Origin: Ruegeria sp. R14_0
Lineage (GTDB): Bacteria; Pseudomonadota; Alphaproteobacteria; Rhodobacterales; Rhodobacteraceae
Assembly (NCBI RefSeq): GCF_017743975.1
Contig: NZ_JAGHRC010000003.1
Span: forward strand, 186,001-250,000
Direction of reading: 5' to 3'
DNA length: 64,000 bases
The stretch's first letter is position 1; the number at the start of each line of letters is the position of its first letter. Below are positions 44,559 to 62,085 of this stretch, piece after piece. A model generated the notes under the pieces. That model saw nothing but the letters and a program-made list of their open reading frames with translations. It had not been told where the DNA came from and ran no database searches. The translations under genes were made by a program, and so were the position numbers.

Positions 44559-45254
44559 TTACGTCCGCGACGCCTCAAATGTGGCCCAGGCGGTTTCGAA
44601 GGCTTCGAAATCAAAACCTGGCTCGCGGGCTGGCGCGAGGATCAGCTTTTCGGTTTCCAAGAGCTTGTTGATGGCTTGCTCTAACCCATCCACAACCTCG
44701 GGCGGGATCACCAAAGCGCCGTGCCGGTCGGCGTGCACAAGATCGCCATCCTTGATCGACAGGCCAAAGATATTCACGGACGTCCCGATTTCTTTTACAT
44801 GCACGAAACCATGGCTTGGGCCAACGGACCCGGCCACAACCGGAAACCCATCCGGCAAATCGCCCAGATCGCGCATCACGCCATTGGTCAGCGCACCGCT
44901 GACACCAAATCCTTTGTGAACGGTCGTGTTGATCTCGCCCCAATAGGCCCCGATGCAATGCGGGTAGTCCACGTCTTCAACAACGGTGACCGTCGGGCCT
45001 GTGCCCGTTGCCATGTGGCGATAGTAGTCCATTCGACGTTTGCGGATGACCTCGGGAGGTTCTTCAGGCGGGTTCACGGCGGCGATCTTGGCCGTTCTGG
45101 CATAGCCGACCATCGCGCCAGCGTCCGGGTCCGAACACAGCATCGTGCCTCGGGTAAAAGCATTGAACCCGCGCTTGCCTTGGGCGACCTCAATCGCATT
45201 GCACACTGTCGGGGTGTCAACGGACTTCAGAAGGTCCAGCAGGGATTGTTTCAT
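44559..45254 (-). CDS. RraA-family aldolase/decarboxylase-like protein
   Basis: A 231-residue RraA-fold protein. Family segments are GAYWGEINTTVHKGFGVSGALTNGVMRDLGDL (with the G-x3-R-D substrate/metal motif) and GDLVHADRHGALVIPPE. Relatives include 4-hydroxy-4-methyl-2-oxoglutarate aldolase and oxaloacetate decarboxylase; RNase E inhibition is a property of a different branch. It overlaps the alpha/beta hydrolase gene by 4 bases and ends the large catabolic locus, where it could cleave the final 2-oxo acid (inference). Confidence 0.85.
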   Translation of the reverse strand: MKQSLLDLLKSVDTPTVCNAIEVAQGKRGFNAFTRGTMLCSDPDAGAMVGYARTAKIAAVNPPEEPPEVIRKRRMDYYRHMATGTGPTVTVVEDVDYPHCIGAYWGEINTTVHKGFGVSGALTNGVMRDLGDLPDGFPVVAGSVGPSHGFVHVKEIGTSVNIFGLSIKDGDLVHADRHGALVIPPEVVDGLEQAINKLLETEKLILAPAREPGFDFEAFETAWATFEASRT

Positions 45255-45946
45255 ATCGCCTCCAACCAGCGGCGCAGAGCCGCTGTTGTCTTTTCAGGTT
45301 GTTCCAGGGTGGGCAGGTGTCCGGCCTGCTCGATGATCTCAAGCCGGCTGTCAGGCACCAGTTCATGCATCAATTCGTGCCGCGAAACAGGACACAGCGC
45401 GTCATCGCGACCGCACAGAATCAGCGTCTTGCGGGTATAGTTGCGCAGTGTTTCGCTTTGATCGGGACGGTCGCGCAACGCAATGGATTGGTTGACAAAT
45501 ACGTCCGCCCCCAGACCCATCGCCATATCCATACACAAGTCCAGAATGGTGGCGCGATTGGGACCGTCGGTCAGGTAATTCGGCTTCATCTCCTCCGCCA
45601 TCACCGTCCGCAAGCCACCTTTCTTCGCCGCCTGAATCTGCGGGGTGCGACGGGCTTTGACCTCATCCAGTTCGGCCAGAGGGTTCGTGTCCAGCAGCGC
45701 CAAGCCCGAGACACGCTCTGCCGCTTGGCGCAGGATTTCCATCGCAACGATCCCGCCCATGGACAATCCCGCCAAAGCAAACCGAGGCGGCGCATGGGCC
45801 AGCACCTCGTTCGCCAGAGCGGTCATCGTGTCGTGCCCCCCAATCGGTGCGCACAGGATCGGATAGCTGCCCGACAATGCCGCGATCTGAGGGCCGTACA
45901 GCCGCGCATCGCACATCATGCCGGGCAGAAGAACAAGCGGCGTCAT
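45251..45946 (-). CDS. Alpha/beta hydrolase
   Basis: A 231-residue hydrolase. The oxyanion region is LLPGMMCDARLY, the nucleophile elbow GLSMGG is near residue 60, the acid is in ILCGRDDALCP and the His in EQAGHLPTLEQP. It is compact and lacks a signal peptide, so it acts in the cytosol. It overlaps the MetE-like and RraA genes by 4 bases each. It may hydrolyse an ester, lactone or C-C bond formed by the locus. Confidence 0.88.
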   Translation of the reverse strand: MTPLVLLPGMMCDARLYGPQIAALSGSYPILCAPIGGHDTMTALANEVLAHAPPRFALAGLSMGGIVAMEILRQAAERVSGLALLDTNPLAELDEVKARRTPQIQAAKKGGLRTVMAEEMKPNYLTDGPNRATILDLCMDMAMGLGADVFVNQSIALRDRPDQSETLRNYTRKTLILCGRDDALCPVSRHELMHELVPDSRLEIIEQAGHLPTLEQPEKTTAALRRWLEAI

Positions 45947-47067
45947 TTGACCAGAGCAGCCCCTTCGGCCAGCGCGCCCAGTTTGGCATATGCGATATCG
46001 GGATCAACTGACCCGAACCCCGCAAACGTGCCAAATCCACAATCGGACCCGGCAATCACCCGATCCGCACCCACAATTCCGGTAAACCGCTCAATGCGTT
46101 GCGAAACCAGTTCGGGGTGTTCGATAAAGTTCGTTGTCGTGTCGACGACACCGGGAACCAAGACCTTGTCGTCCGGGATTTCCGCCTTGCGATCGCGGAA
46201 CACAGTCCATTCATGCGCATGGCGTGGGTTTGAGGTCTCGAACAACAAGTAACGCGCCTTGGTCGACATCAGGGTGGAAAACACCTTGTCCATACCGATA
46301 TCGCAGCAATGCGGCCCCTCGTAGTTGCCCCAGCAGATGTGCACGCGCACCTTGTCAGATGGCACGTTTTCCAACGCGTGATTCAGCGCTTCGACATGCA
46401 TGTCTGCGACCTTCACGAAGTCTTCGTCCGACAGGTCGGTGAACAGCATGTGGCGCGACAAGGCCAGATCCGGGCAGTCCAACTGCAATTCCAGCCCTGC
46501 ACCCACGATCGTCTCGTATTCCTGCTTCATCGCGTCTGCGAGCGCTTCCAAATAAGCCTCGCGCGACGCATAGAAATCGTTCTGCAGGAACAGTGAAATA
46601 ACCCCCGGACTCGCGGCATTCATAAACCCGCGTTCGACCCCATGCGCGGCCATGGCAGCTTTAAGATTGTCGATGTCTTTCTGCAGCTCTCCCTGCCCCT
46701 TTGATCGAACTTCACCCACGCACATCGGGCGCGCGTATTGCGGCGTACCGCCGTCATCAGCCAGCCGTTTTAGAAAGCCTGGGAACATCTTCAGATCCGC
46801 CGGAGCATTGCGCGGGCTGTCCCCGTCAAAACCGGTGTAGCGGTCTTTGACGTAGGTCGCGTACGAGATTTTCGACGTCTCGCCATCCGACACGACATCG
46901 ACCCCCGCCTCAACCTGCTTGCGAACGGTCTCGGAAACCGCCGAGGTCATGCAGGCGTCAAATGCGGCTTGGTCAAAAGGCTCCTCCCGCTCGCGTGCGA
47001 AGATGAAATCGACTACCTCCTGCGTGCGCGGAAGGCTTCCTACATGCGTGGTCGAAATGCGGGTCAT
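45943..47067 (-). CDS. Core-MetE-type zinc methyltransferase
   Basis: A 374-residue protein matching only the C-terminal catalytic domain of cobalamin-independent methionine synthase (start TTHVGSLPRT). The zinc ligands are all present: His243 and Cys245 (VHICWGN), Glu277 (LLFETSN), Cys343 (GSDCGFGT). The N-terminal half of normal MetE (about 750 residues) is absent. Relatives include core-MetE and epoxyalkane:coenzyme M transferase. In this catabolic operon it may remove a methyl group or activate a thiol rather than make methionine (inference). Confidence 0.83.
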   Translation of the reverse strand: MTRISTTHVGSLPRTQEVVDFIFAREREEPFDQAAFDACMTSAVSETVRKQVEAGVDVVSDGETSKISYATYVKDRYTGFDGDSPRNAPADLKMFPGFLKRLADDGGTPQYARPMCVGEVRSKGQGELQKDIDNLKAAMAAHGVERGFMNAASPGVISLFLQNDFYASREAYLEALADAMKQEYETIVGAGLELQLDCPDLALSRHMLFTDLSDEDFVKVADMHVEALNHALENVPSDKVRVHICWGNYEGPHCCDIGMDKVFSTLMSTKARYLLFETSNPRHAHEWTVFRDRKAEIPDDKVLVPGVVDTTTNFIEHPELVSQRIERFTGIVGADRVIAGSDCGFGTFAGFGSVDPDIAYAKLGALAEGAALVK

Positions 47068-47124
47068 ATCGTGTCTCTTACCAAGTTATTTGAAGCGCCG
47101 CCCACAAAAGGCGGCGCAAATGCT

Positions 47125-48087
47125 TTAGCTGCCAGTCCAGGTCGGACCGGCGGGGTCGTCGGTTGCGGTAATCCGGTACAGGCCCGCATCGCCGGTCATG
47201 GACGGCGCGGCGCTGTAGCTTTCGCCCGGCAGAACCAGCGCGGTGTCTCCGTTGGACAGCGTGACTTCAACGTCATCAATCGCAATGCGCCAATGACCGC
47301 TGGCGGGCATCAGAACCACTGGCTTGTCTGCCTTCACAGGATCAATCACGCTGGAACCGCGCCCAAGGAAATCGACCTCGAACCCAGGCTTGTCCTTGAT
47401 CAGGCCGTTTTCACCGATGACCGCAGCGGGCTTGTTCGACGACAGCGCCATCAGGTCCCAATAGCGGGCCACGTATTTGCCAATGACATTCTCAACGGGC
47501 ACTTCTGGATAGGCCTTCAACTCTTCTTCGGTCAGCAGAGGCATCGGCTGTACATTGTGCGGAAGTTCCTGGCCTTTCTTGCTGTCATAGAGCACACCGT
47601 TGTTGCCCAGCATCAAGCCATGGGCTTGCGCGTCCTCGATGACCTGAGGTGCCCAGGTGACCCCTCCGCCTGCGTCGTCGCCGCCAAGGATCGACATGAT
47701 CATGCCGTAGTCCTGACCAACGTTTTCGAAGCCGCGGAAGATACCCGTCGGGATGTTAAAGATATCGCCTTCTTCGGCAATGACCTCACCCGCGGTGCCA
47801 TAGCGGCCCCAGAAGAACCGCCACCGGCCCTTGGCCACAAAAAATACCTCGGCCGTTGTGTGGCTGTGCAGCGAGTTGCGGCATTTCGGAGGTTGACCGG
47901 CTGCGCCGATGTTGAAACCGATCTTGTCGGTGATGTGGACGTGCTGATCAGGGCTTTCCGAAACGCCGCCACCGACAATGGTAAAGTTCTCTTTCTGATC
48001 CGAACCCGGCGTGTGTGCGTCGATGAACGCGGTTTTACAGGGTTGCAATTCGCCATAACGGACGATGCGGCTTTGGATTGTGCTCAT
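47125..48087 (-). CDS. Two-cupin-domain protein
   Basis: A 320-residue bicupin. The first barrel (about 75-150) has the metal motif HSHTTAEVFFVAKGRWRFFWG and GDIFNIPTGIFRGFEN. The second barrel (about 225-310) has PASGHWRIAIDDVEVTLSNGD and lacks most metal ligands. It resembles gentisate/homogentisate-type or sugar-binding cupins; the reaction is unknown. It is 57 bases upstream of the MetE-like gene in the operon. Confidence 0.75.
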   Translation of the reverse strand: MSTIQSRIVRYGELQPCKTAFIDAHTPGSDQKENFTIVGGGVSESPDQHVHITDKIGFNIGAAGQPPKCRNSLHSHTTAEVFFVAKGRWRFFWGRYGTAGEVIAEEGDIFNIPTGIFRGFENVGQDYGMIMSILGGDDAGGGVTWAPQVIEDAQAHGLMLGNNGVLYDSKKGQELPHNVQPMPLLTEEELKAYPEVPVENVIGKYVARYWDLMALSSNKPAAVIGENGLIKDKPGFEVDFLGRGSSVIDPVKADKPVVLMPASGHWRIAIDDVEVTLSNGDTALVLPGESYSAAPSMTGDAGLYRITATDDPAGPTWTGS

Positions 48088-48238
48088 ATCTGTTTTCCTT
48101 CTGATTGGGATTTGATTGGTTCAAACCCCAAACCCCGGAGGACGATTGTTCAGCCGCCGGGCGCGCAGGCTGGCGCGATGGGCATGAAACCGCCGCGCCC
48201 CCTGCCCCGCATCCAGATTTGTAACCCGGCGCGGCATT

Positions 48239-49228
48239 CTACAGATCGCCGGACTTCAGCAGGATCTGCTTCCAGACCGAAGTTTCGTCGAACAGAGTGT
48301 ATTCGCGGCGCAGCTGCGGCTGACCACCGATCAACTCACCGAATTCACCATGGCTTATGCCCAGCACATAGACCTGAGCGCCGGTCGGAACGCCAAAAGC
48401 ACCCCAGCCTTCATGCTTGCCCCACAGGCTCCAGCGTACAGCTGCGCGCGGGGCCATGTTCGGGTCGTCACGGCCGATCTGGTGTTCGATCGTGAACTCG
48501 GCATTCGGGAAGCTGGCGCGCAGTCCCATCCAGAACCGGTCAACGGCATCCCAGCCATGCCCCGTCACGCCACCCACGTATTCGGATTGAACGGCACGGT
48601 CATACTCGGCTTCGATCGCGCCCATATCGGCACCCATGATGCGGGTCAGAATATCGGCATAGCGCTGACCCCATTCATTATCGTTGCCGGTGCCCTTGTA
48701 GGGGCCGGGCTGGTCGGTGTCAGGTGTCAGCGGTTTGACGCACTTGTCCGGCCCGCCCTCACGCGCGATCAGATCAGCCGCATAATCTTTGGGGTCCCAC
48801 CCCATCTGGCGGACGATCGCGCCCTGATCGCGGATCAACCATTCATCGTTGATCTGATTGTCGATGGCATGACAGTCGGCCAGAATCCGATAGCGCAGCT
48901 TGGTCCCCGTCGCCTTGCCATAGACGCCATCCGACTGATGCGTTGCCGTCGAGATGATGCGGTGCGAGCTCAACATGCCCTCTTCCGGCGTGCCGGACCA
49001 GATCACATCCTCGCCCAGCAATTGCCGGTCAGGAAACTCGGCCAGCGTCGCCATGGTTGCGCCGATGACGTTCTGGTTGCCCAACACCACCGATGCGGGC
49101 GAACGCACGACAATGTCCGGCGAATAGTAGTGATGCAGCGTTGAGATACCGCGGTCTTCCCAGATCTCTTTGGTAATCCCGATAATATAGTCGGGAAAGT
49201 CTTTGAATTTGGGATCAAATCCCTTCAT
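48239..49228 (-). CDS. Tandem SnoaL/NTF2-like protein 1
   Basis: A 329-residue protein with two NTF2-fold domains (about residues 5-150 and 180-320). The first has IGITKEIWEDRGISTLHHYYSPDIVVRSP; the second has GWDAVDRFWMGLRASFPNAEFTIE, typical of ester cyclase/SnoaL-like enzymes that cyclise, dehydrate or isomerise. I choose ATG 49228: it overlaps the LacI stop by 4 bases (ATGA) and has AAGGA 8 bases before it, whereas the earlier ATG (49237) has none. It is one of four such proteins in the locus. Confidence 0.8.
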   Translation of the reverse strand: MKGFDPKFKDFPDYIIGITKEIWEDRGISTLHHYYSPDIVVRSPASVVLGNQNVIGATMATLAEFPDRQLLGEDVIWSGTPEEGMLSSHRIISTATHQSDGVYGKATGTKLRYRILADCHAIDNQINDEWLIRDQGAIVRQMGWDPKDYAADLIAREGGPDKCVKPLTPDTDQPGPYKGTGNDNEWGQRYADILTRIMGADMGAIEAEYDRAVQSEYVGGVTGHGWDAVDRFWMGLRASFPNAEFTIEHQIGRDDPNMAPRAAVRWSLWGKHEGWGAFGVPTGAQVYVLGISHGEFGELIGGQPQLRREYTLFDETSVWKQILLKSGDL

Positions 49229-50244
49229 GTCTTCCATCCTTCAGGTATGCGGGCCGAGCCGCGAACGATCAGCGGCCCGTCGATCTCTAACCGGCGCGGA
49301 CCAACGTCCGGGCCTTCGATTTTGCTCAGTAGAATGTCTACAGTTTCGGCAACCATACGGTTGGCAGGCTGGCGCACTGTGGTCAGGTCATAGGTGGGCC
49401 AAGCAGCCACGGCCACGTCATCATATCCGACAACAGAAACATCGTTGGGTACGTTCAGGCCCAACTCGAATCTCAGAGCGTCCATCACCGCAATTGCCAT
49501 GTGATCGTTGGCCACAAAGACGGCGTCCGGCGGGTCAGCGGCAAACATTTCGCGTGTCGCCTCGCGCGACTTTTCACTGGAAAAGTCACCAACCCCGCGC
49601 GCGTGCAGCGCGACGCCCGCGTCTTTCAACGCAGCCCTAAATCCCGCTTCACGGTCCCGCTGGGTCGAGGCCCCCTCCCAGCCCGCGATGTACCCGATTT
49701 TCTTGTGACCGCCGGCTAGGAGAAACTCCGCCACCTTGCGGCCTCCGGCAATATTGTCGGACGACACAGCTGACATCCCCGGATCATCCTGTGCGCGGTT
49801 GAACAGCACCACCGGAATACCGGCTGCCTGACACCGGTCAGACAGATCCGACGACAAGGCCACCGACGCGGCAATGATCCCATCCACTTGGAAATCAAGA
49901 ATTTCCTCGACAACCTTGTCGATGTTCTGCGCCGAGTTCGATGCCATGAAGACCAGCACGTGATAGCCGCGTTCCTGCAGCGCGTTCGTCAGCTTTTCTA
50001 GCGCTTCGGGGTAGAACTGGTTGTTCAGATACGCCACGACCAGACCAATGATCCGACTTTTGCCGGAAACAACCGCGCGGGCTAAAACGTTGGGTCGGTA
50101 CCCCAGCTGATCCGCCGCCTTGCGCACTTTCTCAGCTGTTTTCTTTGACGCGGATGCGCCGGGCGTGAAAACCCGGCTGACCGCAGATTGACTGACCCCG
50201 GCCAGACGAGCAACGTCCAAAGATGTGATCTTTTGCCCAGGCAT
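49225..50244 (-). CDS. LacI-family transcriptional regulator
   Basis: A 339-residue LacI/GalR regulator. The helix-turn-helix is ITSLDVARLAGVSQSAVSRVF and the hinge helix is PNVLARAVVSGKS. The periplasmic-binding-like effector domain follows (IGLVVAYLNNQFYPEALE ... VSVVGYDDVAVAAWP). ATG 50244 shares one base with the SDR stop (TGATG). It lies within the locus and is the natural controller of the operator pair at 58474-58541, probably relieved by the imported sugar-like compound. Confidence 0.93.
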   Translation of the reverse strand: MPGQKITSLDVARLAGVSQSAVSRVFTPGASASKKTAEKVRKAADQLGYRPNVLARAVVSGKSRIIGLVVAYLNNQFYPEALEKLTNALQERGYHVLVFMASNSAQNIDKVVEEILDFQVDGIIAASVALSSDLSDRCQAAGIPVVLFNRAQDDPGMSAVSSDNIAGGRKVAEFLLAGGHKKIGYIAGWEGASTQRDREAGFRAALKDAGVALHARGVGDFSSEKSREATREMFAADPPDAVFVANDHMAIAVMDALRFELGLNVPNDVSVVGYDDVAVAAWPTYDLTTVRQPANRMVAETVDILLSKIEGPDVGPRRLEIDGPLIVRGSARIPEGWKT

Positions 50245-51011
50245 CAGTCTGCTGTCCACCCCCCGTCAATCATCATCGCGGTCCCGGTAACAAGCGCCGA
50301 GGCATCTGACGCGAGATAGACAACTGCCCCCATGATGTCTTCGATTTCGCCGGGGCGACCCAGCTTGATCTTGTCCAGAATCCAGGCACGTTTGTCCGGG
50401 TCATCGAAGGTCGCGCGCGTCAGGTCCGTCAGGATAAAGGTCGGGCAAATGGTATTGACCCGGATCTTTGCCGGACCGAACTCTAGCGCCATCGCCTTTG
50501 TGAACCCTTCGACCGCGAATTTCGAGGCGCAATACACCGCCCTTTCCCGCCCGCCGACATGCCCCATCTGGCTGGAGATGTTGATCAACGATCCGGCCCG
50601 TCCGGTCTGCAACAAGCCTTTGGCCACCGCTTGGGTCAGGAAATACGCGCCGCGAACATTGACATCCATCACGGCGTCAAAATCTTCTGTTGCCGTTTCG
50701 ACCGCCTTGCCATGCCGCGCCAGACCGGCGGAGTTCAGCAAGATGTCGAACGGCCCGTTCTCTGCGACAGCAGCAGCCGTTTTGTCGACGTCCGAGACGT
50801 CGAGCTCAAGCGTATTGGCCGCCCACCCCCGCGCCTTCATCTCATCCGCGATATCCTGCAGTGCGCCAATGCGGCGCGCTGCCAAAGTCACCTCAGCACC
50901 GTGTTCGGCCAACGCAACAGCACAGGCCATACCGATGCCGGAGGATGCTCCGGCTATCAACGCGCGCTTGCCGCTGAGTTGGAAACTTGGGGTGCTGGGG
51001 AATTGGGGCAT
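50244..51011 (-). CDS. Short-chain dehydrogenase/reductase
   Basis: A 255-residue classical SDR. The NAD(P) motif is GASSGIG near residue 21, with LNSAGLA for NNAG, NISSQMG (catalytic Ser) and YCASK (YxxxK) near 160. It resembles gluconate 5-dehydrogenase and 3-oxoacyl reductases in the family. It is 1 base from the upstream SnoaL gene and shares a base with LacI. Probably oxidises a ring hydroxyl of the substrate (inference). Confidence 0.92.
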   Translation of the reverse strand: MPQFPSTPSFQLSGKRALIAGASSGIGMACAVALAEHGAEVTLAARRIGALQDIADEMKARGWAANTLELDVSDVDKTAAAVAENGPFDILLNSAGLARHGKAVETATEDFDAVMDVNVRGAYFLTQAVAKGLLQTGRAGSLINISSQMGHVGGRERAVYCASKFAVEGFTKAMALEFGPAKIRVNTICPTFILTDLTRATFDDPDKRAWILDKIKLGRPGEIEDIMGAVVYLASDASALVTGTAMMIDGGWTAD

Positions 51012-51012
51012 A

Positions 51013-52065
51013 TCAGACCTCGCCGACCGGGAATGGAATTTCGCCCATTACACGAGCCTTGTTGAACTCGCGCAGACGGGCGAAGACATCTACGCCCAGT
51101 TGCCGGTACGCGTCCAGCAGGTCAACCATCACCCAGTTTTCGCGGATCAAGCCGTTTTCGAGCCGCCAGAAATCCAGCGACCGCATGGTGATCCGCTGAG
51201 CAGAGGGGGCAATTCCCATCCAGCCGTCATGGGTGACAGTCTGGATCATGTTAGGCCAACCGGTTACCGCCGCGTATTCGGCATCACCGAAGAAATGATA
51301 GGTGATGTCGTCCACGTATTTGCCGCGATCCGGCATGCCATTTAGAAACGGGATCTGGTGCCAATTGCGGAACCCGGCGATACCTCGACCGGTTCCGATA
51401 CCCGCGGGCCCGTACCAGTTCATGCGCGGATGCCAGAACTTGTCCATCTCCATCACCTCTGGCCCACCCTGGCTGGGGTGCTTTTTGAGGTGATTGAGCA
51501 TCTCGACAATGTGGTCGCACGAGGCTTGGGATTTGGCCTCGTCCCATGGACCGGGCACGATACCGTCCAGCGTCGCAGGGCCGGGAATGCAGAATTCCAG
51601 CCCCAAGGACGGGGCCATCGGCCAGGCATTCGCCTGCATCATGACCTCGGGGATGTCCCAAAGCGTCTGGATCTCGACGATCTGGCCGTCCTCGATGCGG
51701 TAGAACTCATGGAACCGCATGTGGGTCAGATGCCCGGTCGGCGGAATGTCCAGCCATGGCGCGACAAATGTACCGATGTAGTGCCCACCACATCCGATCC
51801 AATCGCCGCCATGTTCGGTGCGTCCGCCCATGACGATCCAGTCGCGACGTTCAAGATCAGGCATGGCCTTCAACAGCGGCGCGTAACACGTATCGTACAG
51901 TTCCTGCGGACCGGTCAGATCGCCAAACGGATGCGGCATGTGCACCACGGCATCCGAGGCGATGGCCCCCTTCAGCGCAGCCTGCACACGGACCGCATCA
52001 AAGTCATACATCGCGGCCCTAAGCGGCGCGATCAGCGCCTTGTTGGCCGTATGGACGTCGCTCAT
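51013..52065 (-). CDS. Tandem SnoaL/NTF2-like protein 2
   Basis: A 350-residue protein with two SnoaL-like halves. The motif [23 protein letters not shown] (first half) is echoed by [33 protein letters not shown] (second half). It is clearly homologous to the plus-strand protein at 58607 and to the single-domain protein at 53405. I start at ATG 52065 (MSDVHTANK), which overlaps the HisD-like stop by 4 bases; the longer frame adds 38 Arg-rich residues of no family match. Cytosolic. Confidence 0.82.
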
Positions 52066-53393
52066 TCTGCGGCCTCTCGATATGGGGCACCTTCGCCGTA
52101 GGGAACATTGATACCGCCATAGCGACGGACCCGGACGTTGCACTGTTCGGCGTGCCCAACAAACCCTTCGAGCATACACAGGCGCGAGCCATATTCGCCG
52201 ATCACGGTCGCGGCTTCGTCGGTCAGAACTTTCTGATAGCTGTGGGTTTTCAGAAACTTACCAACCCATAGACCACCGGTGTACCGCCCGGCCTTTTTGG
52301 TCGGCAACGTGTGGTTCGTACCGATCACCTTATCGCCGTTGGCAACGTTGGTGCGCGGACCAAGGAACAACGCGCCATAACACGTCATGTTTTCCAGGAA
52401 CCAGTCGTCGCGATCCGTCATCACCTGCACATGCTCCGAGGCGATATCATCGGCCACCTCAAGCATTTCGTCATAGGTATCGCAGACGATGACCTCGCCG
52501 TATTCTTCCCAGCTGACTTTAGCAGTGTCAGCAGTCGGCAAAATACCCAGAATGCGGTCGACCTCGTCCAGAGTGGCCTCGGCCAGTTTGCGCGAGTTGG
52601 TCAGCAGAACGCAGGGGCTGTTATACCCATGCTCAGCCTGCCCCAGCAGGTCAGTGGCGCACAGCTCGGCGTCAGCGGCGGTTTCATCCGCGATCACCAT
52701 GGTCTCGGTTGGACCTGCGAACAAATCAATGCCGACGCGTCCAAACAATTGACGCTTGGCTTCGGCGACGAATGCGTTGCCGGGGCCGACCAGCATATGA
52801 ACCGGTTTGATGGATTCCGTGCCAATCGCCATTGCGCCGACAGCCTGAATGCCACCCATGACGTAGATTTCATGCGCGCCACCCAGATGCATCGCAGCGA
52901 TCACCGCAGCATTGGGCTTGCCCTGAAATGGAGGTGTACACGCAATGATGCGGGGAACACCCGCCACTTTGGCCGTGGCAACGGACATATGAGCCGAGGC
53001 TACCATCGGGAACTTACCGCCCGGAACATAGCAGCCGACGGATTGTACGGGGACGTTTTTATGGCCAAGGATCACACCGGGTTGCGTCTCGACTTCGATA
53101 TCCAGCATCGAGTCGCGCTGTGCCTGCGCGAAATTCATCACCTGCGCTTGCGCGAACTTGATGTCAGCCAGCTCCCGGTCGCTCAGCGAGGCGATCAGGT
53201 CGTCGATCTCTTGCTGGCTCAGACGGAAGCTCTCGGGCGAATAGTTGTCGAATTTCTCCGACAACTCTCGTACAGCCGCATCGCCGCGCGCCTCGATATC
53301 CTTCAGCGTCGCCTCGACGACGGCGCGGGTTTTGGCATCATCCTCGGCCCTGTCGGCCTCGGGTTTACCGCGTTTAAGATATTCGATTGCCAT
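52062..53393 (-). CDS. Histidinol-dehydrogenase-family alcohol dehydrogenase (catabolic)
   Basis: A 443-residue HisD-fold enzyme. The zinc ligands of the family are present: Gln252 and His255 (GQAEHG), Asp354 (NGDKVIG), His414 (FVGHAEQ). The catalytic Glu320-His321 pair (ASEHVQV) is also there. No other histidine gene is nearby; it sits among SnoaL, SDR and ABC transporter genes. The family also includes sulfopropanediol 3-dehydrogenase (HpsN) of marine bacteria, which oxidises a terminal alcohol to an acid. The same four-electron chemistry on a polyol or sugar-like compound is the likely role here. Confidence 0.85.
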
Positions 53394-53404
53394 TGTCTTA
53401 TTCC

Positions 53405-53935
53405 TCAGTTGTCGGGCCGGGGCGGTGTTTTTTCGCCCCGGTCAAATGCTTCCCAGCCTTCGCCGTTGAACACGTCCACGCCCAATTGCGCAGCGACGTG
53501 GGCGAAATCGACGTTCACCCAGTTGTCGACGATCTTGCCGTCAACGACCTTCCAGAAGTCCATGTACCGGATCTCAACCCGTTTGCCGGTCGGTGCGATC
53601 CCCAGAAACTCGCCCGAATGGGTTGCCTCTTGCCGGCCAAAGGCCGCGGCCCATTCGCCCATGTAAAGGCGCGCTTCATCAATGCAGGTCTTGTCGGAAA
53701 ACGCAGCCTGAAACGGGCGCTGCCAGTTGTTCTGAAACTCTTCCAACCCGGTCTTTGTTCCACAGCCTTGGTTGCCCAGCCAGCGAAACCCTTGCGAGAA
53801 GAACTCGCCAATGTCGTCGATGCGGTGGTCGTTCAATCCGTCGACCATCCCTTCGATAACCGCTCGGGTTTCTTCGGTTTTGCTCATGTCCGTGTCTTTG
53901 GTCAGCACGGCCTGTTCGGGGCGTGAACCCTTCAT
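53405..53935 (-). CDS. Single-domain SnoaL/NTF2-like protein 3
   Basis: A 176-residue SnoaL-like protein ([20 protein letters not shown] ... [28 protein letters not shown]). It matches the C-terminal half of the tandem members. I start at ATG 53935 because AAGGA precedes it at normal distance; an internal ATG at 53887 lacks one. It is 11 bases upstream of the HisD-like gene and follows the transporter genes after a 135-base gap with no hairpin that I could find. Confidence 0.82.
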
Positions 53936-54070
53936 GATTTTCGTCCTTGTTCTGATGCATTAGGAATTTTCTGATTTTCCGAGCGGTTTAAATCTCAGAC
54001 AGAAAATCCCTCGGCATCCGGTTGAGCGCCGGGTGGCGCCCAATGGCATTATGTCGTGCAGAGGCGCTCA

Positions 54071-54952
54071 TCAGCCTTTCACCGCCCCTGCAGTCAGACC
54101 GCTGACAATCTGGCGCTGGAAGAACAGAATCAGCACGAACAGCGGCGCGGTGGTCGAGACCACGGCGGCAACCGCGTACATCACCTTGCCTTCGACCTGG
54201 GTGGTGCCCATGAAACTGTTGATTGCCGGAATGATGGTTTCGTTGTCTGCACTCAGCAGCATCGCCGTAACGGCAAAGTCGTTATAGGCCAGCAAAAAGC
54301 TGAACAGGCCGGTGGTAATCACGCCCGGCCACATAACCGGAACGATCACATGCCAGAACGCCTGAAACCGGGTACAGCCGTCGACCATTGCGCTTTCATC
54401 CATGTCTTTCGGGATATTCTTGAAGAACGAATGCAGCATCCACAGGGTGAAGGGTTGGTTGATTGCGACCAACACAATGATCGTGGTCGGCAGAATGCCC
54501 CAGACATTCCACTCGAAGAACGGCAACAGGTAACCTGAAACCAGGGTGATATGCGGCATGGCACGGAACACCAGAGCAGCCATCAAAATCCAGAAGGCAT
54601 AGCGGAAGCCGGATCTTGCGAGCGCATAACCACCGAGTGTCCCGAAGGTCAGCGAGATGACAACGGTAAAGAACACCACAATCCCGGTGTTTCTGAAATT
54701 GAACCAGAAATCCTCAAGCACCCAAGCGCCATAGTAACCCGCTCCGGTGAAGGCGCTGCCGGTTTGTTCGATTGTGTTTGTGCCCCGCAGCGCGTTCATC
54801 CAGTCGGCCTTGGACAGAAAGTCAGCCTGAACTTTAAAGCTGCCCCAAAACGTCCAGAAGAAAGGGAACGCCGCGATAATGAGCCAGACTGCAACAAAGC
54901 CATAAGAGAACAGCTTGAGCGGAGTCATGCGGGATTGTGCTTTGGTCGCCAT
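54071..54952 (-). CDS. CUT1-type ABC sugar permease (MalG-like)
   Basis: A 293-residue permease with six hydrophobic helices and the EAA-type coupling segment DESAMVDGCTRFQAFWHVIVPVMWPG near residue 200. It is of the MalG/UgpE type. With the MalF-like, binding-protein and ATPase genes upstream it completes one importer. Confidence 0.93.
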   Translation of the reverse strand: MATKAQSRMTPLKLFSYGFVAVWLIIAAFPFFWTFWGSFKVQADFLSKADWMNALRGTNTIEQTGSAFTGAGYYGAWVLEDFWFNFRNTGIVVFFTVVISLTFGTLGGYALARSGFRYAFWILMAALVFRAMPHITLVSGYLLPFFEWNVWGILPTTIIVLVAINQPFTLWMLHSFFKNIPKDMDESAMVDGCTRFQAFWHVIVPVMWPGVITTGLFSFLLAYNDFAVTAMLLSADNETIIPAINSFMGTTQVEGKVMYAVAAVVSTTAPLFVLILFFQRQIVSGLTAGAVKG

Positions 54953-54961
54953 GTCGTGTCC

Positions 54962-55993
54962 TCAGTGAGATTTGCGGGTGAAGTCGCGCCATGTGCGTAT
55001 CAGCACGGGCGTCATCAGGATGACCACAAGGATGATCGTGATCAGCGAGGTCGCGCCCGCAGATGCGTAGAGCGGATTGCCGCTTTCGCGCAGGTCGTTG
55101 TAGATGATCCAGCTGAGCGACTGGGCATGCGCCTCGGCCTTGAAGCTGACGATCGGCTCGAACACGCGGAAGTTGTCCATGATCAGCATCAGTGTCACGA
55201 ACGATACCAACGGCATCAGATGCGGAACAACAACGTGGATCATGCGCTGCCATTTGCTGGCACCGTCGATCTGGGCGGCTTCCATCGTGTCTTCCGGCAC
55301 GGTCTGAAGACCAGCGTAGAAGGTGATGAAGCTGAACGGCAGGGTGTGCCAGACGCCATACACCATCAGCATTGTCCAGGTCAGCGCGGTCGAAGCCTTT
55401 AGGCTGAGGGATGGATCATTGAATATACGTTGAATGGTGGCGCCAATTACACCATCGCTGTCGACCATCCAGAACAGGATCAACGAACCGACAAGCGGGG
55501 TGACAAGAAAGGGCAAAAGCGAAACAAAGATCGCCAACCCCTTGAGCATACCTGGCAAGTTGTTGACGCCAACCGCGATGGCCATACCAAGGATCAGAAC
55601 CAGCGGTGTGACGACGGCGGTGTAGGCCAGTGTGAATGCCAGCGCGCTGTAGAAGGGCAGGTTGTAGACATTGCTCCAGAACTCACCGAACGAAGCGGAA
55701 CTGGACCATGCCTCACCTACCTCGGAAAAGGCCAGATGCGAACGGTTGGTATATGTCCCAAGCCCGTTGAATTGGCCAAGCGGCTGATCAGCGCGCAACT
55801 TTTCGGTGGCCTCGACATCCACCGCAGTGGCTTCAGTACACCCAAAAGGGCCGCAGTTTTCGGTTACGACCAAAACCTGCTCATGCTCGACAAACAGCGA
55901 TTGAACAAAGACCGAGACAATGGGCAGCGCGATAAACAGGATCATCGCGGTGAGCGTCGGCAGAATGAACCAGAAAAAGGTACGGTGCTTCAT
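54962..55993 (-). CDS. CUT1-type ABC sugar permease (MalF-like)
   Basis: A 343-residue permease with an extended periplasmic loop between helices 1 and 2 (about residues 35-110, containing CGPFGCTEA, a possible disulfide). The coupling motif is EAAQIDGASKWQRMIHVVVPHL near 240. It is 9 bases upstream of the MalG-like gene. Confidence 0.92.
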   Translation of the reverse strand: MKHRTFFWFILPTLTAMILFIALPIVSVFVQSLFVEHEQVLVVTENCGPFGCTEATAVDVEATEKLRADQPLGQFNGLGTYTNRSHLAFSEVGEAWSSSASFGEFWSNVYNLPFYSALAFTLAYTAVVTPLVLILGMAIAVGVNNLPGMLKGLAIFVSLLPFLVTPLVGSLILFWMVDSDGVIGATIQRIFNDPSLSLKASTALTWTMLMVYGVWHTLPFSFITFYAGLQTVPEDTMEAAQIDGASKWQRMIHVVVPHLMPLVSFVTLMLIMDNFRVFEPIVSFKAEAHAQSLSWIIYNDLRESGNPLYASAGATSLITIILVVILMTPVLIRTWRDFTRKSH

Positions 55994-56059
55994 AGCGTAT
56001 GTCCCGGTCTAAATCCGAAAAGAGAGGGGGCCAGATACAGCCCCCTCAGTCGGGGAGAG

Positions 56060-57304
56060 TTACTGAAGGAACCCGGCTTCTTTGGCCGAGGTTCTGTATG
56101 CAGATTCAACATCCGCCAGCGCCTGTTCGGCACTCTCGTCGCCTTTGATAAAGTCCGACAGTTCGGTACCCAGCGCCGCGTGCAACAGTCCCATTTGCGG
56201 GATCATCGGGTAAGGTTTCGCCCCACCCTGCGCGGTCTGGGCAACACCTGCCGCAGCCGGTCCGGGTGTAAAGCCATCCAGCAACCAAACGGCGTCATCG
56301 TTGTTCGCTGAAACCATTTCGGGTGTCAGGGCACTGACGAGGGCCGCAAAAGTCGCCTCAGCTTCTTCATCCGATACGTTAGTGGCAATCGAGATGCCAT
56401 CCCACCAAAGGGTTGCGGATGGGATCGAACCGCCTCCTACAGTCGGCGCGCCGGACAAGACGGTGTTCGATGTCACTTCTTCGGTCGAACCTTCGTCGTC
56501 CAAGATCGGCGAACCGCGCGAACCCCACATGACGCCCAGAGCAGCCTGGCCGGATTCCCACAGGCCCTGCGTTTCGTTTGACGCATGTGTCAGGTGGTCG
56601 GGATGCGCATATTCAGCAATCGCCTTCATGGTTTCCAGCGTGGCCAGACCTTTTTCGTTGTTGATCGAAGGTTCCGCCGATCCGGGCTCGAAGAACTCGC
56701 CGCCATGGCCGAGGTAGATCATGTTGAAGACTTCGGCGAGGTTCCAACCGGTCTGCATGTTGATAACGATCGGATGCTCCATGATGCCCGCCTCGCGGAT
56801 CATTTTTGCAGCCTCGATCACTTCCTCGTAGGTCGCGGGGATACCCTCGAAACCAGCTTGCTCAAGGATGTCCTTGCGCGAGAAGAGATGCTGAGAGTTC
56901 GCCATGAACGCCACAGCCATAATGTTGCCGTCGATGGTGATCAGAAGGTTCGGCGAGATGTTTTCGCCATACTTCTCAACCAGATCGTTCAGCGGGCGGA
57001 CCAGACCGTCATTCATCAGCTGGGTCAGGGTCGCGTTGGCCAGAATAACCGAGGAGTACTCGGACGGGTTCGGCGTCAGAGCCGCATTCATAATCGAACG
57101 CGCTTCGGTCGTGTGGTTTGTTGCAAAGTCAGACGCGCCGCTTGCACAATTGGCTTCCGCCGCGCCCGCGACGGCGTGGATCGCCGGGAAGTCGCTGGCC
57201 AGAATGCGGATGGATTGACCTTCCGGCCCACAATTGGCGGCATAAGCGGCCGAGCCCATCAGACCCACAAAGGTCGTTACGGTTGCTAGCTTTCTCAGAA
57301 ACAT
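56060..57304 (-). CDS. Extracellular sugar-type solute-binding protein
   Basis: A 414-residue binding protein with a signal peptide (MFLRKLATVTTFVGLMGSAAYA) and a MalE-like fold. Segments include YEEVIEAAKMIREAG, GLWESGQAALGVMWGSRGSP and ATLWWDGISIATNVSDEEAEATFA. Aromatic residues in the last segment (WW) are the type that stack on sugar rings. The start is ATG 57304 with AGGGAG before it. A small GC hairpin lies between this gene and the ATPase gene upstream, which could stabilise a shorter, more abundant transcript. Confidence 0.92.
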   Translation of the reverse strand: MFLRKLATVTTFVGLMGSAAYAANCGPEGQSIRILASDFPAIHAVAGAAEANCASGASDFATNHTTEARSIMNAALTPNPSEYSSVILANATLTQLMNDGLVRPLNDLVEKYGENISPNLLITIDGNIMAVAFMANSQHLFSRKDILEQAGFEGIPATYEEVIEAAKMIREAGIMEHPIVINMQTGWNLAEVFNMIYLGHGGEFFEPGSAEPSINNEKGLATLETMKAIAEYAHPDHLTHASNETQGLWESGQAALGVMWGSRGSPILDDEGSTEEVTSNTVLSGAPTVGGGSIPSATLWWDGISIATNVSDEEAEATFAALVSALTPEMVSANNDDAVWLLDGFTPGPAAAGVAQTAQGGAKPYPMIPQMGLLHAALGTELSDFIKGDESAEQALADVESAYRTSAKEAGFLQ

Positions 57305-57365
57305 TTCAGTCTCCCTGTTTCTTTGAGTTTTGGTTGCGTGCCCCTTACACGCAGTGGGTTTGATC

Positions 57366-57382
57366 CCGGGGCTTTTCCCCGG
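57366..57382 (-). other. GC hairpin between ATPase and binding-protein genes
   Basis: CCGGGG, loop of five, CCCCGG: a six-pair stem in the 97-base gap. It has no T run. It could be a processing or stability element allowing higher binding-protein levels, as is common for such operons. Confidence 0.35.
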
Positions 57383-57401
57383 TGATTGAGCGGGGGTAAT
57401 G

Positions 57402-58448
57402 TCAGATCCGTTGCCCGGTCTGACCGTCAAACAGATGACAAATCTCACTGGGAACCGAGATCGACACCATGTCGTCAATTTCGGCGCGATAGTTTTTGTC
57501 GGCCTTCACGGACACCAGCGCCCCGCCCACGCGGACGGAAATCATGGTCGCATCGCCCAGCAATTCCTGGGTGTAGATCGGCGCGTTGATCTGACCCTGA
57601 CCGTCAGTGGCCAGTGTGGCATCTTCGGCGCGGAAGCCGAGGGTCATGGGGCCGTCAGGTGCATTGACACCGGAAATCTCGACATTCTTCGCGGTGAAGG
57701 TGCCGCCCCGCACTTCGCCTTCCATCAGGTTCATCGCAGGGTTGCCGATAAAGCTAGCGACAAAGGTGTTGGCGGGCGTGTCATAAATCTCGGTCGGGCT
57801 GCCAACCTGCTGCACAACACCGCTTTTCATCACGACCACACGGTCGGCCAAAGTCATCGCTTCGATCTGGTCGTGGGTCACGTAGATCGTAGTGACGGCC
57901 AGCTCATGGCTTAGATTCTTGATCTGGGCGCGTGTCGAAACGCGCAGCTTGGCGTCGAGGTTCGACAGCGGTTCATCCATCAAAAAGACGTTTGGTTCGC
58001 GAACGATTGCGCGCGCCAGTGCAACCCGCTGACGCTGACCGCCCGACAATTCGGCCGGTTTGCGGTGCAGGAAGTCATCCAGTTCAACCATGGCCGAGGC
58101 GCGACGGACCTTATCGTCATGCGTCGAAGGGTCAATGCCCCGCACTTTCAGCGGGAACCGGATGTTTTCGTAGACATTCATGTTCGGGTACAGCGCGTAA
58201 GACTGGAACACCATCGCCACATCGCGGTCTTTGGGTTCCATGTCGTTGACGCGCTGACCGTCAATCAGGATGTCGCCTTCGCTGGCATCCTCGAGCCCCG
58301 CGATCATGCGCATCGTGGTGGTCTTGCCACAGCCGGACGGGCCAAGAAGCACCAGAAACTCTTTGTCAGAAATTGTAAGATCGAAATTGTCGACCCCAAC
58401 AAACGAGCCCCAACGCTTTCCAACATTGCGAAGTTGAATCTCGGCCAT
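57402..58448 (-). CDS. ABC transporter ATPase (MalK/UgpC-like)
   Basis: A 348-residue ATPase with Walker A GPSGCGKTT near 37, the signature LSGGQRQR near 134, Walker B FLMDEPLSNLD and a C-terminal TOBE regulatory domain (TLGFRAEDATLATD). It energises the MalF/MalG-like pair. I start at ATG 58448 (MAEIQLRNVGK); the longer frame runs 42 codons into the operator region. It is the first gene of the long minus-strand operon. Confidence 0.95.
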   Translation of the reverse strand: MAEIQLRNVGKRWGSFVGVDNFDLTISDKEFLVLLGPSGCGKTTTMRMIAGLEDASEGDILIDGQRVNDMEPKDRDVAMVFQSYALYPNMNVYENIRFPLKVRGIDPSTHDDKVRRASAMVELDDFLHRKPAELSGGQRQRVALARAIVREPNVFLMDEPLSNLDAKLRVSTRAQIKNLSHELAVTTIYVTHDQIEAMTLADRVVVMKSGVVQQVGSPTEIYDTPANTFVASFIGNPAMNLMEGEVRGGTFTAKNVEISGVNAPDGPMTLGFRAEDATLATDGQGQINAPIYTQELLGDATMISVRVGGALVSVKADKNYRAEIDDMVSISVPSEICHLFDGQTGQRI

Positions 58449-58473
58449 TCTGTCCTCCCTGCCGCATGCACGG

Positions 58474-58541
58474 TGCATACGTTTGCAAAAGCATAGACAT
58501 CTTAAGGAACATCTGGCAAGAATTTTTTGCATGCGCATGCA
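58474..58541. promoter_or_regulatory. Paired LacI-type operators in the divergent promoter
   Basis: TTGCATGCGCATGCAA at 58527-58542 is a perfect 16-base palindrome with central CG. TGCATACGTTTGCA at 58474-58487 matches its core at most positions (consensus TGCATRCGYWTGCA). Centres are 54 bases apart, about five helical turns, suiting a looped repressor. Both sit between the ATPase start (58448) and the plus-strand SnoaL start (58607). The LacI regulator at 49225-50244 is the likely binder. Confidence 0.7.
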
Positions 58542-58606
58542 AGCCGCCTGGATCCTTCTTGCACAGCACTGCACCTAACCGGTTAATGCACTGAAAGAAA
58601 AACAAA

Positions 58607-59608
58607 ATGTCCTATGAAGCCGAAAAGCAGGTCGTCCTCGATTTCTATGACGCAATCGACAAGGCACAAGAATCGTCCATCGTCAGTGCAATCGCCGACC
58701 ATTGCGCGCCAGACTTTTTGTGGCGCGGTTTTCATCCCTTTGACGAGCAGCACGGCGCAGAGGCCGTAGCGCAGAATTTCTGGACCCCGCTCAGAAAAAG
58801 CCTGACCCGTCAGCAACGCCGCATGGATGTATTCATGGCCGGCGCCAACGAAATGGATGGCTTCGATTCGGTCTGGGTGGCGTCGATGGGTCACCTGATG
58901 GGTCTGTTTGACACCCCCTGGCTTGGGATCGCGCCAACGGGCAAACTGGCCTTTCTGCGGTATTGCGAATTCCACAAGGTCGAGAACGGCAAAATCACTG
59001 AAACCGCAATGTATTTCGATATTCCGCATCTCATGATGCAGGCCGGTCTGCAGCCCTTCCCTCCGCAAACCGCGGCACAGCTGGTTCAACCAGGGCCCAT
59101 GACCCATGACGGGCTGATGTTCACGCCTCAGCCCGCTGATGAGGCCGATCGGACGCTGGCTGCGATCAACGCGATGATTTCGGACCTGGGTCAGTGGAAC
59201 AGCGGCCTGAGCCTTGAGGATGAATTGCGGCGCACCTGGCACGAGGACATGCTCTGGTGGGGGCCGACGGGTATCGGCGCGACCTACACGATCGAACGTT
59301 ACGCCAAACAACACGCTGGCCCGTTCCGTGCCTCGTTCGCCGATCGGTCGAAAACCGGGCATATCTGCCGTATGGCCGAGGGGCACTATGGCGGCTTTTT
59401 TGGTTGGCCCAACTTCACCGCCCGCCCGACCGGCGGTTTCATGGGCATGCCCGCAACCAACAAACTCGGCGAGTTTCGCGTGATCGATATCTACCGCCGC
59501 GACGGCGACAAGCTGGCCGAAAACTGGATCTTCATCGACCTGCTGCATTTCTGGAAACAGCAGGGCGTCGATATTCTGGCGCGCATGGCCGAGGTGCCTA
59601 AGACATGA
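58607..59608 (+). CDS. Tandem SnoaL/NTF2-like protein 4
   Basis: A 333-residue protein with two NTF2-like halves. The first half has FHPFDEQHGAEAVAQNFW and GIAPTGKLAFLRYCEFHKVENGKITE; the second has WWGPTGIGATYTIERYAKQHAG and KLAENWIFIDLLHFWKQQGVDILARM. It is homologous to protein 2 (51013-52065) over both halves. It is transcribed divergently from the importer operon under the paired operators, and its stop overlaps the amidohydrolase start by 4 bases. Confidence 0.83.
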   Translation: MSYEAEKQVVLDFYDAIDKAQESSIVSAIADHCAPDFLWRGFHPFDEQHGAEAVAQNFWTPLRKSLTRQQRRMDVFMAGANEMDGFDSVWVASMGHLMGLFDTPWLGIAPTGKLAFLRYCEFHKVENGKITETAMYFDIPHLMMQAGLQPFPPQTAAQLVQPGPMTHDGLMFTPQPADEADRTLAAINAMISDLGQWNSGLSLEDELRRTWHEDMLWWGPTGIGATYTIERYAKQHAGPFRASFADRSKTGHICRMAEGHYGGFFGWPNFTARPTGGFMGMPATNKLGEFRVIDIYRRDGDKLAENWIFIDLLHFWKQQGVDILARMAEVPKT

Positions 59609-60498
59609 CACACTGGATCGACGCCCATCACCATCTTTGGGACCTGAACGCCTTAAACTATCCCTGGCTGATGGCGCGCGGGGTCGAGCGGTTCTTTGGT
59701 GATCCTACTCCGATTCAGCGAGACTATCTGCTGGATGAGTTCCGGTCCGAGGCCGAGCCGTGCGGTGTTCGCGCCTCGGTGCATATTCAGGTTGGGGCCG
59801 AAAGCGGCCTGGACGAAGCCCGCTGGGTCCAGTCTGTCGCCGATGCCAACCGTGATTGGCCGATGGCACAGGTTGTGTTCTGCGATCTGACCTCGGCGGA
59901 CCTTTCTACACAGTTGGACACGTTCCAGACCCTGAAAACCGTGCGAGGCCTGCGCCAGATTGTCGGGCGCGCGCCCGGAGAGGACGCGCAGACGGGGACA
60001 AACACACTTCTCGACAACGCCGCGTTTGTGACGGGCCTGCAAGAGGCCGGTCGTCGCGGCCTCAGCTTTGATCTGCAGCTCATCCCCGAACTGATGGAAA
60101 AAACCGCCCGCGTTCTGGCGCAAGCCCCCGAGACGGAGATCGCCCTATGTCATGCCGGATCGCCCCATGACCGCAGCCCCGAAGGGCTTAAAGACTGGGC
60201 TCAGCACCTGCGTACACTGTCCGCCCTGCCCCACGTGACTTGCAAACTGTCCGGGTTGGGTATGTTCGACCACACATGGACGCCAGACAGCATCCGCCCG
60301 ATCATCGAAACCTGCCTTGATCAATTTGGCCCGGACCGGGTCATGTTCGGATCAAATTTCCCGGTCGATAAGCTGTATGGCGACTACGCCACTCTGGCGA
60401 ACGCATATCGCGATCTGATCCCGGCCGAGGCGCACCAAGCTGTGTTCCAAGACTCTGCAGCGCGGTTCTATGCTTTGCAGCAACCGCAGGCAGACTAG
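59605..60498 (+). CDS. Amidohydrolase-2 family hydrolase (lactonase-like)
   Basis: A 297-residue TIM-barrel hydrolase of the COG3618/amidohydrolase-2 type. Metal motif HxH is in WIDAHHHLWDL at the N-terminus, with LCHAGSP near 180 and VMFGSNFPVDKL near 250. Relatives include L-fuconolactonase and 2-pyrone-4,6-dicarboxylate lactonase. In this locus it would open a sugar lactone made by the SDR or by the HisD-like enzyme (inference). Confidence 0.87.
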   Translation: MTHWIDAHHHLWDLNALNYPWLMARGVERFFGDPTPIQRDYLLDEFRSEAEPCGVRASVHIQVGAESGLDEARWVQSVADANRDWPMAQVVFCDLTSADLSTQLDTFQTLKTVRGLRQIVGRAPGEDAQTGTNTLLDNAAFVTGLQEAGRRGLSFDLQLIPELMEKTARVLAQAPETEIALCHAGSPHDRSPEGLKDWAQHLRTLSALPHVTCKLSGLGMFDHTWTPDSIRPIIETCLDQFGPDRVMFGSNFPVDKLYGDYATLANAYRDLIPAEAHQAVFQDSAARFYALQQPQAD

Positions 60499-60550
60499 AG
60501 AGGCTGTTTGATAACATCCGCCTTGACCTGAGCGTTATCTAGGCCACGTG

Positions 60551-61873: not shown

Positions 61874-62085
61874 ACTTCAAAATCATTTAAAAACAAATCA
61901 CTAAACTAAGAATCTGAACACACGACCACGCTGTTCAAATCGCCTTTTTTATGCGAAACGAGTGGCACCGCGGTCACGCGCGCAGCTACGCCTGACGCGC
62001 AAGACGCATCGGTCCCTCTGAATATAGTGATCCGCGCCCGTTGTGATTGCGTAACAATTACATGCGCAATTGAATACGTACGACA

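Follow-up and report, generated by a model that had tools for sequence, protein, structure and literature searches.

In the current work, we examine a 64,000-nucleotide stretch of the genome of Ruegeria sp. R14_0 (contig NZ_JAGHRC010000003.1, positions 186,001 to 250,000; hereafter the window), which carries at positions 44559-60498 a 16-gene locus rich in SnoaL/NTF2-like proteins, and we propose that this locus probably serves the uptake and breakdown of mycosporine-like amino acids (MAAs) and related mycosporines. Algae, cyanobacteria and corals commonly use MAAs as sunscreens. The proposal is drawn from serine, threonine and glycine genes that adjoin relatives of the locus, since shinorine, porphyra-334 and mycosporine-glycine carry these amino acids as substituents. 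More tentatively, the locus may encode a complete bacterial MAA pathway, which would lead through a new class of double-NTF2 hydrolases to pyruvate and oxaloacetate. None of the titles and abstracts returned by our searches of the open-access literature names genes for MAA catabolism or this gene set; earlier print elsewhere is possible. The four SnoaL-like proteins are called here S1 (48239-49237), S2 (51013-52065), S3 (53405-53935) and S4 (58607-59608); the last three were named P2, P3 and P4 in the original prediction, a short note made from the letters of the window.

Serine, threonine and glycine genes beside relatives of the locus

The S4 proteins of the window, of Vibrio and of Halomonas fall into one clade (31 rows, 100/100 support, in a tree built without the S4 fragment of locus L101). 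In Vibrionaceae, S4 and an MFS carrier form a cassette divergent from an SSS symporter, often with a porin in between (named as such in the V. europaeus record, with no Pfam match), and a LacI gene lies beside S4 in 15 of the 18 cassettes compared, which comprise 17 of the 29 places with at least 89% S4 identity together with L009. Directly behind the symporter, ten of these 18 carry an L-serine ammonia-lyase gene, sdaA (L164, L165, L167, L189, L191, L192, L198, L200, L202 and L212); its product scores 650 bits against TIGR00720 (cut-off 345), it is an extra genomic copy in nine of the ten genomes, and the deposited annotation of V. europaeus shows this version of the cassette. In one other cassette (L186), kbl-tdh, for glycine C-acetyltransferase and L-threonine dehydrogenase, follows the LacI gene, and in Halomonas smyrnensis tdh-kbl lies within the locus, between S4 and S3. 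In a metagenome-assembled genome of the Granulosicoccaceae (L101), the S4 fragment is divergent from S2, which is followed on the opposite strand by gcvP and gcvT, the stops of S2 and gcvP being 32 bases apart; gcvP is also adjacent to the locus in L115 and in L123, its near relative.

Vibrio harveyi has been reported to remove the hydroxyamino acids from shinorine and porphyra-334 (Dunlap and Shick, as cited in PMC3083659). This conversion is the activity that we propose for S4, and no gene is named for it in the relevant passage of that source (PMC3083659). In view of this report and of the amino acids found in MAAs, S4 would release serine or threonine, and S2, together with S1 and S3, would release glycine.

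An N-methyl substrate was also considered, on account of FAD-dependent and GcvT-kind neighbours in 11 of 130 loci (dimethylglycine-dehydrogenase type, sarcosine oxidase alpha and GcvT); it was abandoned, since these neighbours form a mixed group and roseobacters often have such paralogues.

Gene content of the locus

All 16 genes listed by the original prediction were recovered at their positions in the window by open reading frame calling, and their families by Pfam and NCBIfam profiles. The features are as follows.

44559-45254, minus strand: RraA-fold aldolase (Pfam RraA-like, 55 bits); putative last step, a pyruvate-forming retro-aldol cleavage
45251-45946, minus strand: alpha/beta hydrolase, a distant PcaD relative below the cut-off; lactone or beta-diketone hydrolysis proposed
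45943-47067, minus strand: core-MetE-type zinc thiol methyltransferase (Pfam/NCBIfam); accessory, O-demethylation proposed
47125-48087, minus strand: bicupin with invariant H74, H76 and E80; ring-cleaving dioxygenase proposed
48239-49237, minus strand: S1, double-domain SnoaL/NTF2 protein (Pfam)
49225-50259, minus strand: LacI-family regulator (Pfam/NCBIfam, with operator sites); proposed regulator of the locus
50244-51011, minus strand: SDR oxidoreductase (Pfam/NCBIfam)
51013-52065, minus strand: S2, double-domain SnoaL/NTF2 protein (Pfam); glycine release proposed
52062-53393, minus strand: HisD-like dehydrogenase, nearest to HpsN; four-electron oxidation of CH2OH to COOH proposed
53405-53935, minus strand: S3, single-domain SnoaL/NTF2 protein (Pfam)
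54071-54952, minus strand: CUT1 permease, MalG type (Pfam/NCBIfam)
54962-55993, minus strand: CUT1 permease, MalF/UgpA type (Pfam/NCBIfam)
56060-57304, minus strand: CUT1 solute-binding protein (Pfam)
57402-58451, minus strand: CUT1 ATPase, UgpC/MalK type (Pfam/NCBIfam)
58473-58488, unstranded: operator site 2, GTGCATACGTTTGCAA (motif search)
58527-58542, unstranded: operator site 1, a perfect 16-base palindrome, TTGCATGCGCATGCAA (motif search)
58607-59608, plus strand: S4, double-domain SnoaL/NTF2 protein (Pfam); putative serine/threonine-releasing hydrolase
59605-60498, plus strand: amidohydrolase-2, fuconolactonase-like (Pfam/NCBIfam); accessory lactonase

The CUT1 importer is complete, with a binding protein, two permeases and an ATPase. 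The genes for S2 and the binding protein most likely start at 52065 and 57304, and that for the ATPase near 58451; the longer open reading frames upstream of these starts are mechanical extensions. The predicted total of seven NTF2/SnoaL domains in four proteins was confirmed by Pfam (two each in S1, S2 and S4, one in S3), and all four proteins exceed the gathering score for SnoaL or SnoaL_2. The motif that had been taken as a sign of duplication among S2, S3 and S4 is real, as these three match one another by blastp (S2-S4 at 4e-53, S2-S3 at 3e-20 and S3-S4 at 8e-14); S1 matches none of them at 1e-3, so that only three of the four SnoaL proteins are evident recent relatives. With the SnoaL-like polyketide cyclases IdmH (6hnn) and TsrD (5x7l), S1-S4 have the NTF2/SnoaL domain in common, but two domains are fused in S1, S2 and S4, the genes belong to a catabolic operon, and the sequence match is weak (E about 1e-4).

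Spread and conservation of the gene set

Within Rhodobacterales, S2 finds a match (E <= 1e-10) in 133 of 292 genomes and 55 of 112 genera; these 133 include some S4-type relatives, and in 107 of them the best E is <= 1e-80. HisD, cupin, S1 and S2 occur together in 32 of 40 loci taken from S2 matches, which cover about 35 genus codes, and the eight loci with less than this set (L048, L055, L062, L070, L075, L076, L078 and L080) are partial or cut by contig ends. The co-occurrence favours the original view of one co-inherited catabolic locus, and judged by these comparisons the gene set is a real conserved unit, beyond chance.

A profile of 12 S2/S4 proteins retrieved at least 584 relatives in named genomes, of which the best 80 were kept and which include Halomonas, SAR116, SAR324, Thioalkalivibrio, Leucothrix and Roseibium. 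Among 130 loci picked for a match to this profile, S2 was labelled in 127, S1 in 113, LacI in 106, the binding protein in 105, the permeases in 103 each, the ATPase in 102, the HisD-like enzyme in 99, the cupin in 95, the SDR in 89, S3 in 85, MetE in 83, S4 in 74, RraA in 71, the alpha/beta hydrolase in 59 and the amidohydrolase in 31; the counts are not independent, as some loci come from the same or near-identical genomes and others are truncated where a contig or fetch ends, and the labels, being the best blastp at E <= 1e-6, can fall on unrelated neighbours in common families (ATPases, SDRs, LacI). Two SAR116 loci are reduced to LysR, a binding protein, two permeases, S2 and S1.

Beyond Rhodobacterales the distribution is patchy. 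Across the phylum, 22 of 398 genomes have a match, six of them outside the family of the window; in the class of a Vibrio-like genome, G387, the figure is 9 of 369, and in the family of H. smyrnensis 2 of 101. The family of G387, called Vibrionaceae because its S4 is 84-96% identical to the S4 of named Vibrio records, has an S4 match in 40 of 150 genomes. Genes of S2 or S4 type were also found in SAR116, SAR324, vibrio and haloarchaeal sequences, and among marine bacteria the gene set is widespread.

A candidate pathway for mycosporine-like amino acids

In the pathway that we propose, shinorine, porphyra-334 or mycosporine-glycine would be taken up by the CUT1 importer (in vibrios, by the SSS and MFS carriers). 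S4 would hydrolyse the serine or threonine imine to give mycosporine-glycine, and S2, with S1 and S3, would hydrolyse the glycine enaminone to give 4-deoxygadusol, whose ring we take to bear OH and CH2OH at C5, an enol-ether methyl and a reductone. The HisD-like enzyme would oxidise the C5 CH2OH to a carboxylate, core-MetE, where present, would take the enol-ether methyl, the bicupin would open the resulting reductone, and the hydrolases would open lactone or diketone forms. Finally, RraA (or HpcH) would split the acyclic acid, derived as 4-carboxy-4-hydroxy-2-oxoadipate (CHA), into pyruvate and oxaloacetate. CHA is the substrate of known RraA-fold aldolases. We infer that the 4-deoxygadusol ring fits the HisD-like enzyme, core-MetE, the bicupin and the aldolase; the order in which the ring steps occur is a guess, as are the parts played by S1, S3 and the SDR. 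From the scheme of the original prediction, oxidation by the HisD-like enzyme and RraA-type aldol cleavage are retained as plausible, and the sugar- or polyol-like substrate is less likely.

The nearest PDB relative of the HisD-like enzyme is HpsN (8v35, 8wwe; E 3e-115), the 3-dehydrogenase of (R)-2,3-dihydroxypropane-1-sulfonate (R-DHPS), with which it shares the fold family, the zinc ligands and the catalytic Glu-His pair of the HisD superfamily (GQAEH, SEH, DK and the C-terminal H are aligned); unlike HpsN, it is linked to SnoaL genes. HpsN is described as a four-electron alcohol-to-acid dehydrogenase (PMC11382572), and the same oxidation is expected of the locus enzyme. As a vicinal amino or hydroxy alcohol is bound to zinc in both HisD and HpsN, the likely target is, by analogy, a CH2OH group next to a carbinol.

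RraA has the RraA-like domain and RD motif of the CHA aldolases LigK and PcmE, with NGx(hydrophobic)RD present in 69 of 79 homologues, and from fold family and motif we propose that it works like a CHA aldolase; it differs from these in scoring far below the NCBIfam equivalog cut-offs for that enzyme (26 and 23 bits against 179 and 304.5). Two unrelated types of pyruvate aldolase alternate over the 92 loci that contain HisD, cupin and SDR: 63 have RraA only, eight HpcH/HpaI only (two of them from one genome), two both and 19 neither.

The core-MetE protein shares its zinc-ligand motifs with the core-MetE/MetE-II family (HxCWGN and (S/T)DCGF in 86 of 86 homologues, ETSNPRH in 82) and falls below all methionine-synthase equivalog cut-offs, its best score against the NCBIfam equivalog for B12-independent methionine synthase being 89 bits for a cut-off of 406. 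Methyl transfer by this protein and lactone opening by the amidohydrolase are steps of the original prediction; judged from the loci compared, both genes are accessory, core-MetE being dispensable.

Several observations weigh against an MAA substrate. The serine, threonine and glycine links all lie in relatives and none at the window itself; seven of the 18 vibrio cassettes (L009, L183, L184, L185, L187, L188 and L190) have neither sdaA nor kbl-tdh, and the vibrio cases, being of shared ancestry, represent few independent events. Over 187 loci (Leucothrix L214, which lacks SnoaL genes, left out), SdaA was counted in 11, Tdh-Kbl in 3 (two of them from one genome) and GcvP in only 4, and S2 or MetE runs towards the gcv genes and is not co-transcribed with them. 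The linked tdh is the only one found genome-wide in L186 and in H. smyrnensis, so that the locus may have landed there beside a housekeeping pair. A genome-wide search (E <= 1e-40) of 14 genomes, most of them selected for a locus without MetE, found no MetE in 12, among them all 10 Vibrionaceae searched, and demethylation would thus need another route or not always be required. Acireductone dioxygenase, the best PDB match of the bicupin profile, reaches E 0.0012 over the whole chain but is not significant when the domains are taken singly; quercetin dioxygenase and unnamed cupins rank next. The likeness of the binding protein to sugar binders is weak (best E 2e-9) and uninformative as to the substrate. 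TonB-dependent receptors lie within a gammaproteobacterial locus (L163:7028-9532) and an alphaproteobacterial one (L169:6338-8983), which would not be expected for a solute as small as about 300 Da; soil isolates (Ensifer and Paracoccus alcaliphilus) also carry the locus; and we know of no C-N hydrolysis of the proposed kind by the NTF2 fold.

Alternative substrates

We regard as unlikely that the substrate is another serine, threonine or glycine conjugate, for example a glycosyl-serine or -threonine or an N-substituted hydroxyamino acid, from which the SnoaL proteins would release the amino acid. The same SdaA, Kbl-Tdh and Gcv links would speak for such a compound, as would an importer of sugar type, whereas no sugar kinase or glycosidase was found among the 16 proteins by Pfam or NCBIfam, and the bicupin, the HisD-like enzyme and the pyruvate-type aldolase would better fit a cyclic carbon skeleton.

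The lack of a kinase or glycosidase also tells against a methylated sugar or cyclic polyol, the substrate favoured by the original prediction, which would be oxidised, opened as a lactone and split by RraA, with core-MetE transferring the methyl. The CUT1 importer, LacI, an SDR of KduD/gluconate-dehydrogenase type and the fuconolactonase-like amidohydrolase would all suit this scheme, and in L003 an SMP-30/gluconolactonase and an HpcH-type aldolase stand beside S4. Since the amidohydrolase and MetE are accessory, and the amino-acid genes of relatives, which point to a serine-, threonine- or glycine-bearing substrate, would be left unexplained, we consider it quite improbable.

It appears very unlikely that the locus, with no amino-acid link, breaks down a polyketide-like or aromatic compound through cleavage by a dioxygenase and aldolase steps of CHA type. 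The bicupin, the PcaD-like hydrolase, the amidohydrolase-2 and RraA recall the end of protocatechuate 4,5-cleavage, and the vibrio MFS carrier scores best, below the cut-off, with aromatic-acid symporters; against this stand the CUT1 importer and the serine, threonine and glycine links, and the same profiles found neither a CoA ligase nor a ring hydroxylase in the 16 proteins. Use of a sulfonate such as DHPS, a further candidate of the original prediction, is scarcely credible and was rejected despite the likeness to HpsN, because His126 (CpHpsN numbering), which is described as recognising the sulfonate (PMC11382572), is replaced by Met in 112 and Leu in 7 of 122 homologues, with three unreadable and thus His in 0 of 119, and no sulfite-lyase type was found by Pfam or NCBIfam among the 16 window proteins.

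A LacI-type operator at the divergent promoter

The two operator sites lie between the divergent S4 and ATPase genes. Over 184 loci, the form TTGCANNCGNNTGCAA has 128 exact sites, in 91 loci, against maxima of 4 for the other 59 permuted half-sites and 6 for 200 random ones; the nearest gene start is that of the ATPase for 61 of the 128 sites and that of S4 for 43. The Ruegeria genome itself has five exact sites, of which the four outside the locus differ in their cores and are probably sites of other regulators. We propose from these sites, which cover the divergent promoter of S4 and the ATPase, that the LacI-family protein regulates the locus through a conserved palindrome with a CG centre; the LacI control foreseen earlier thus withstood an in-silico check.

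In the Vibrionaceae cassettes, a search for near-perfect CG palindromes (7 of 8 pairs) turned up no site consistently, and a looser one found the operator: a LacI-type site stands at each of the two divergent promoters in 18 of 18 cassettes with up to four mismatches, and in 16 of 18 by a tighter count for which the best different shuffled palindrome reached 7, the motif having been derived from the same 18 sequences. On another contig of the Ruegeria genome (G000:C19:116044-131262), three TTGCAACCG(A/G)TTGCAA sites occur in 15 kb and are probably operators of a second LacI-type regulon.

Neighbouring genes

A biosynthetic cluster may border the locus in the window (60548-63258), where a glycosyltransferase of macrolide type is encoded together with an acyl-CoA dehydrogenase similar to the dehydrogenases of prolyl carrier proteins (313 bits for PigA and 298 bits for RedW, neither reaching the cut-off); the copy in Ruegeria sp. 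THAF33 (L010:1-5270) likewise adjoins genes for an acyl-CoA dehydrogenase and an ACP malonyltransferase. On plasmid pMaD9 of Marinovum algicola (L224:1-29023), annotated genes for demethylation of dimethylsulfoniopropionate lie some 3 kb past the locus, resembling an algal-metabolite island, and a Halobellus limi plasmid (L006:12914-19307) has five tandem SnoaL genes and core-MetE, with a GcvT-like aminomethyltransferase about 10 kb off. Several roseobacters have a GMC-type oxidoreductase gene within the locus (L054, L063, L066 and L078; profile-checked in L063). A SAM methyltransferase recurs in 17 loci and a PNPOx-type flavoprotein in five. Sulfatase-family genes lie near eight of 187 SnoaL loci (L096, L099, L101, L113, L165, L167, L198 and L205, three of them profile-checked); sulfated MAAs have been described (PMC3083659), and choline or phosphate esters are as likely an explanation.

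Implications

If the MAA reading is true, the locus would supply candidate genes for an old observation of bacterial MAA breakdown and a marker for MAA turnover in metagenomes, and its SnoaL proteins would show the NTF2 fold in a new hydrolytic use. Nearly half of the sampled Rhodobacterales genomes (133/292) have a match to S2, the central SnoaL protein.

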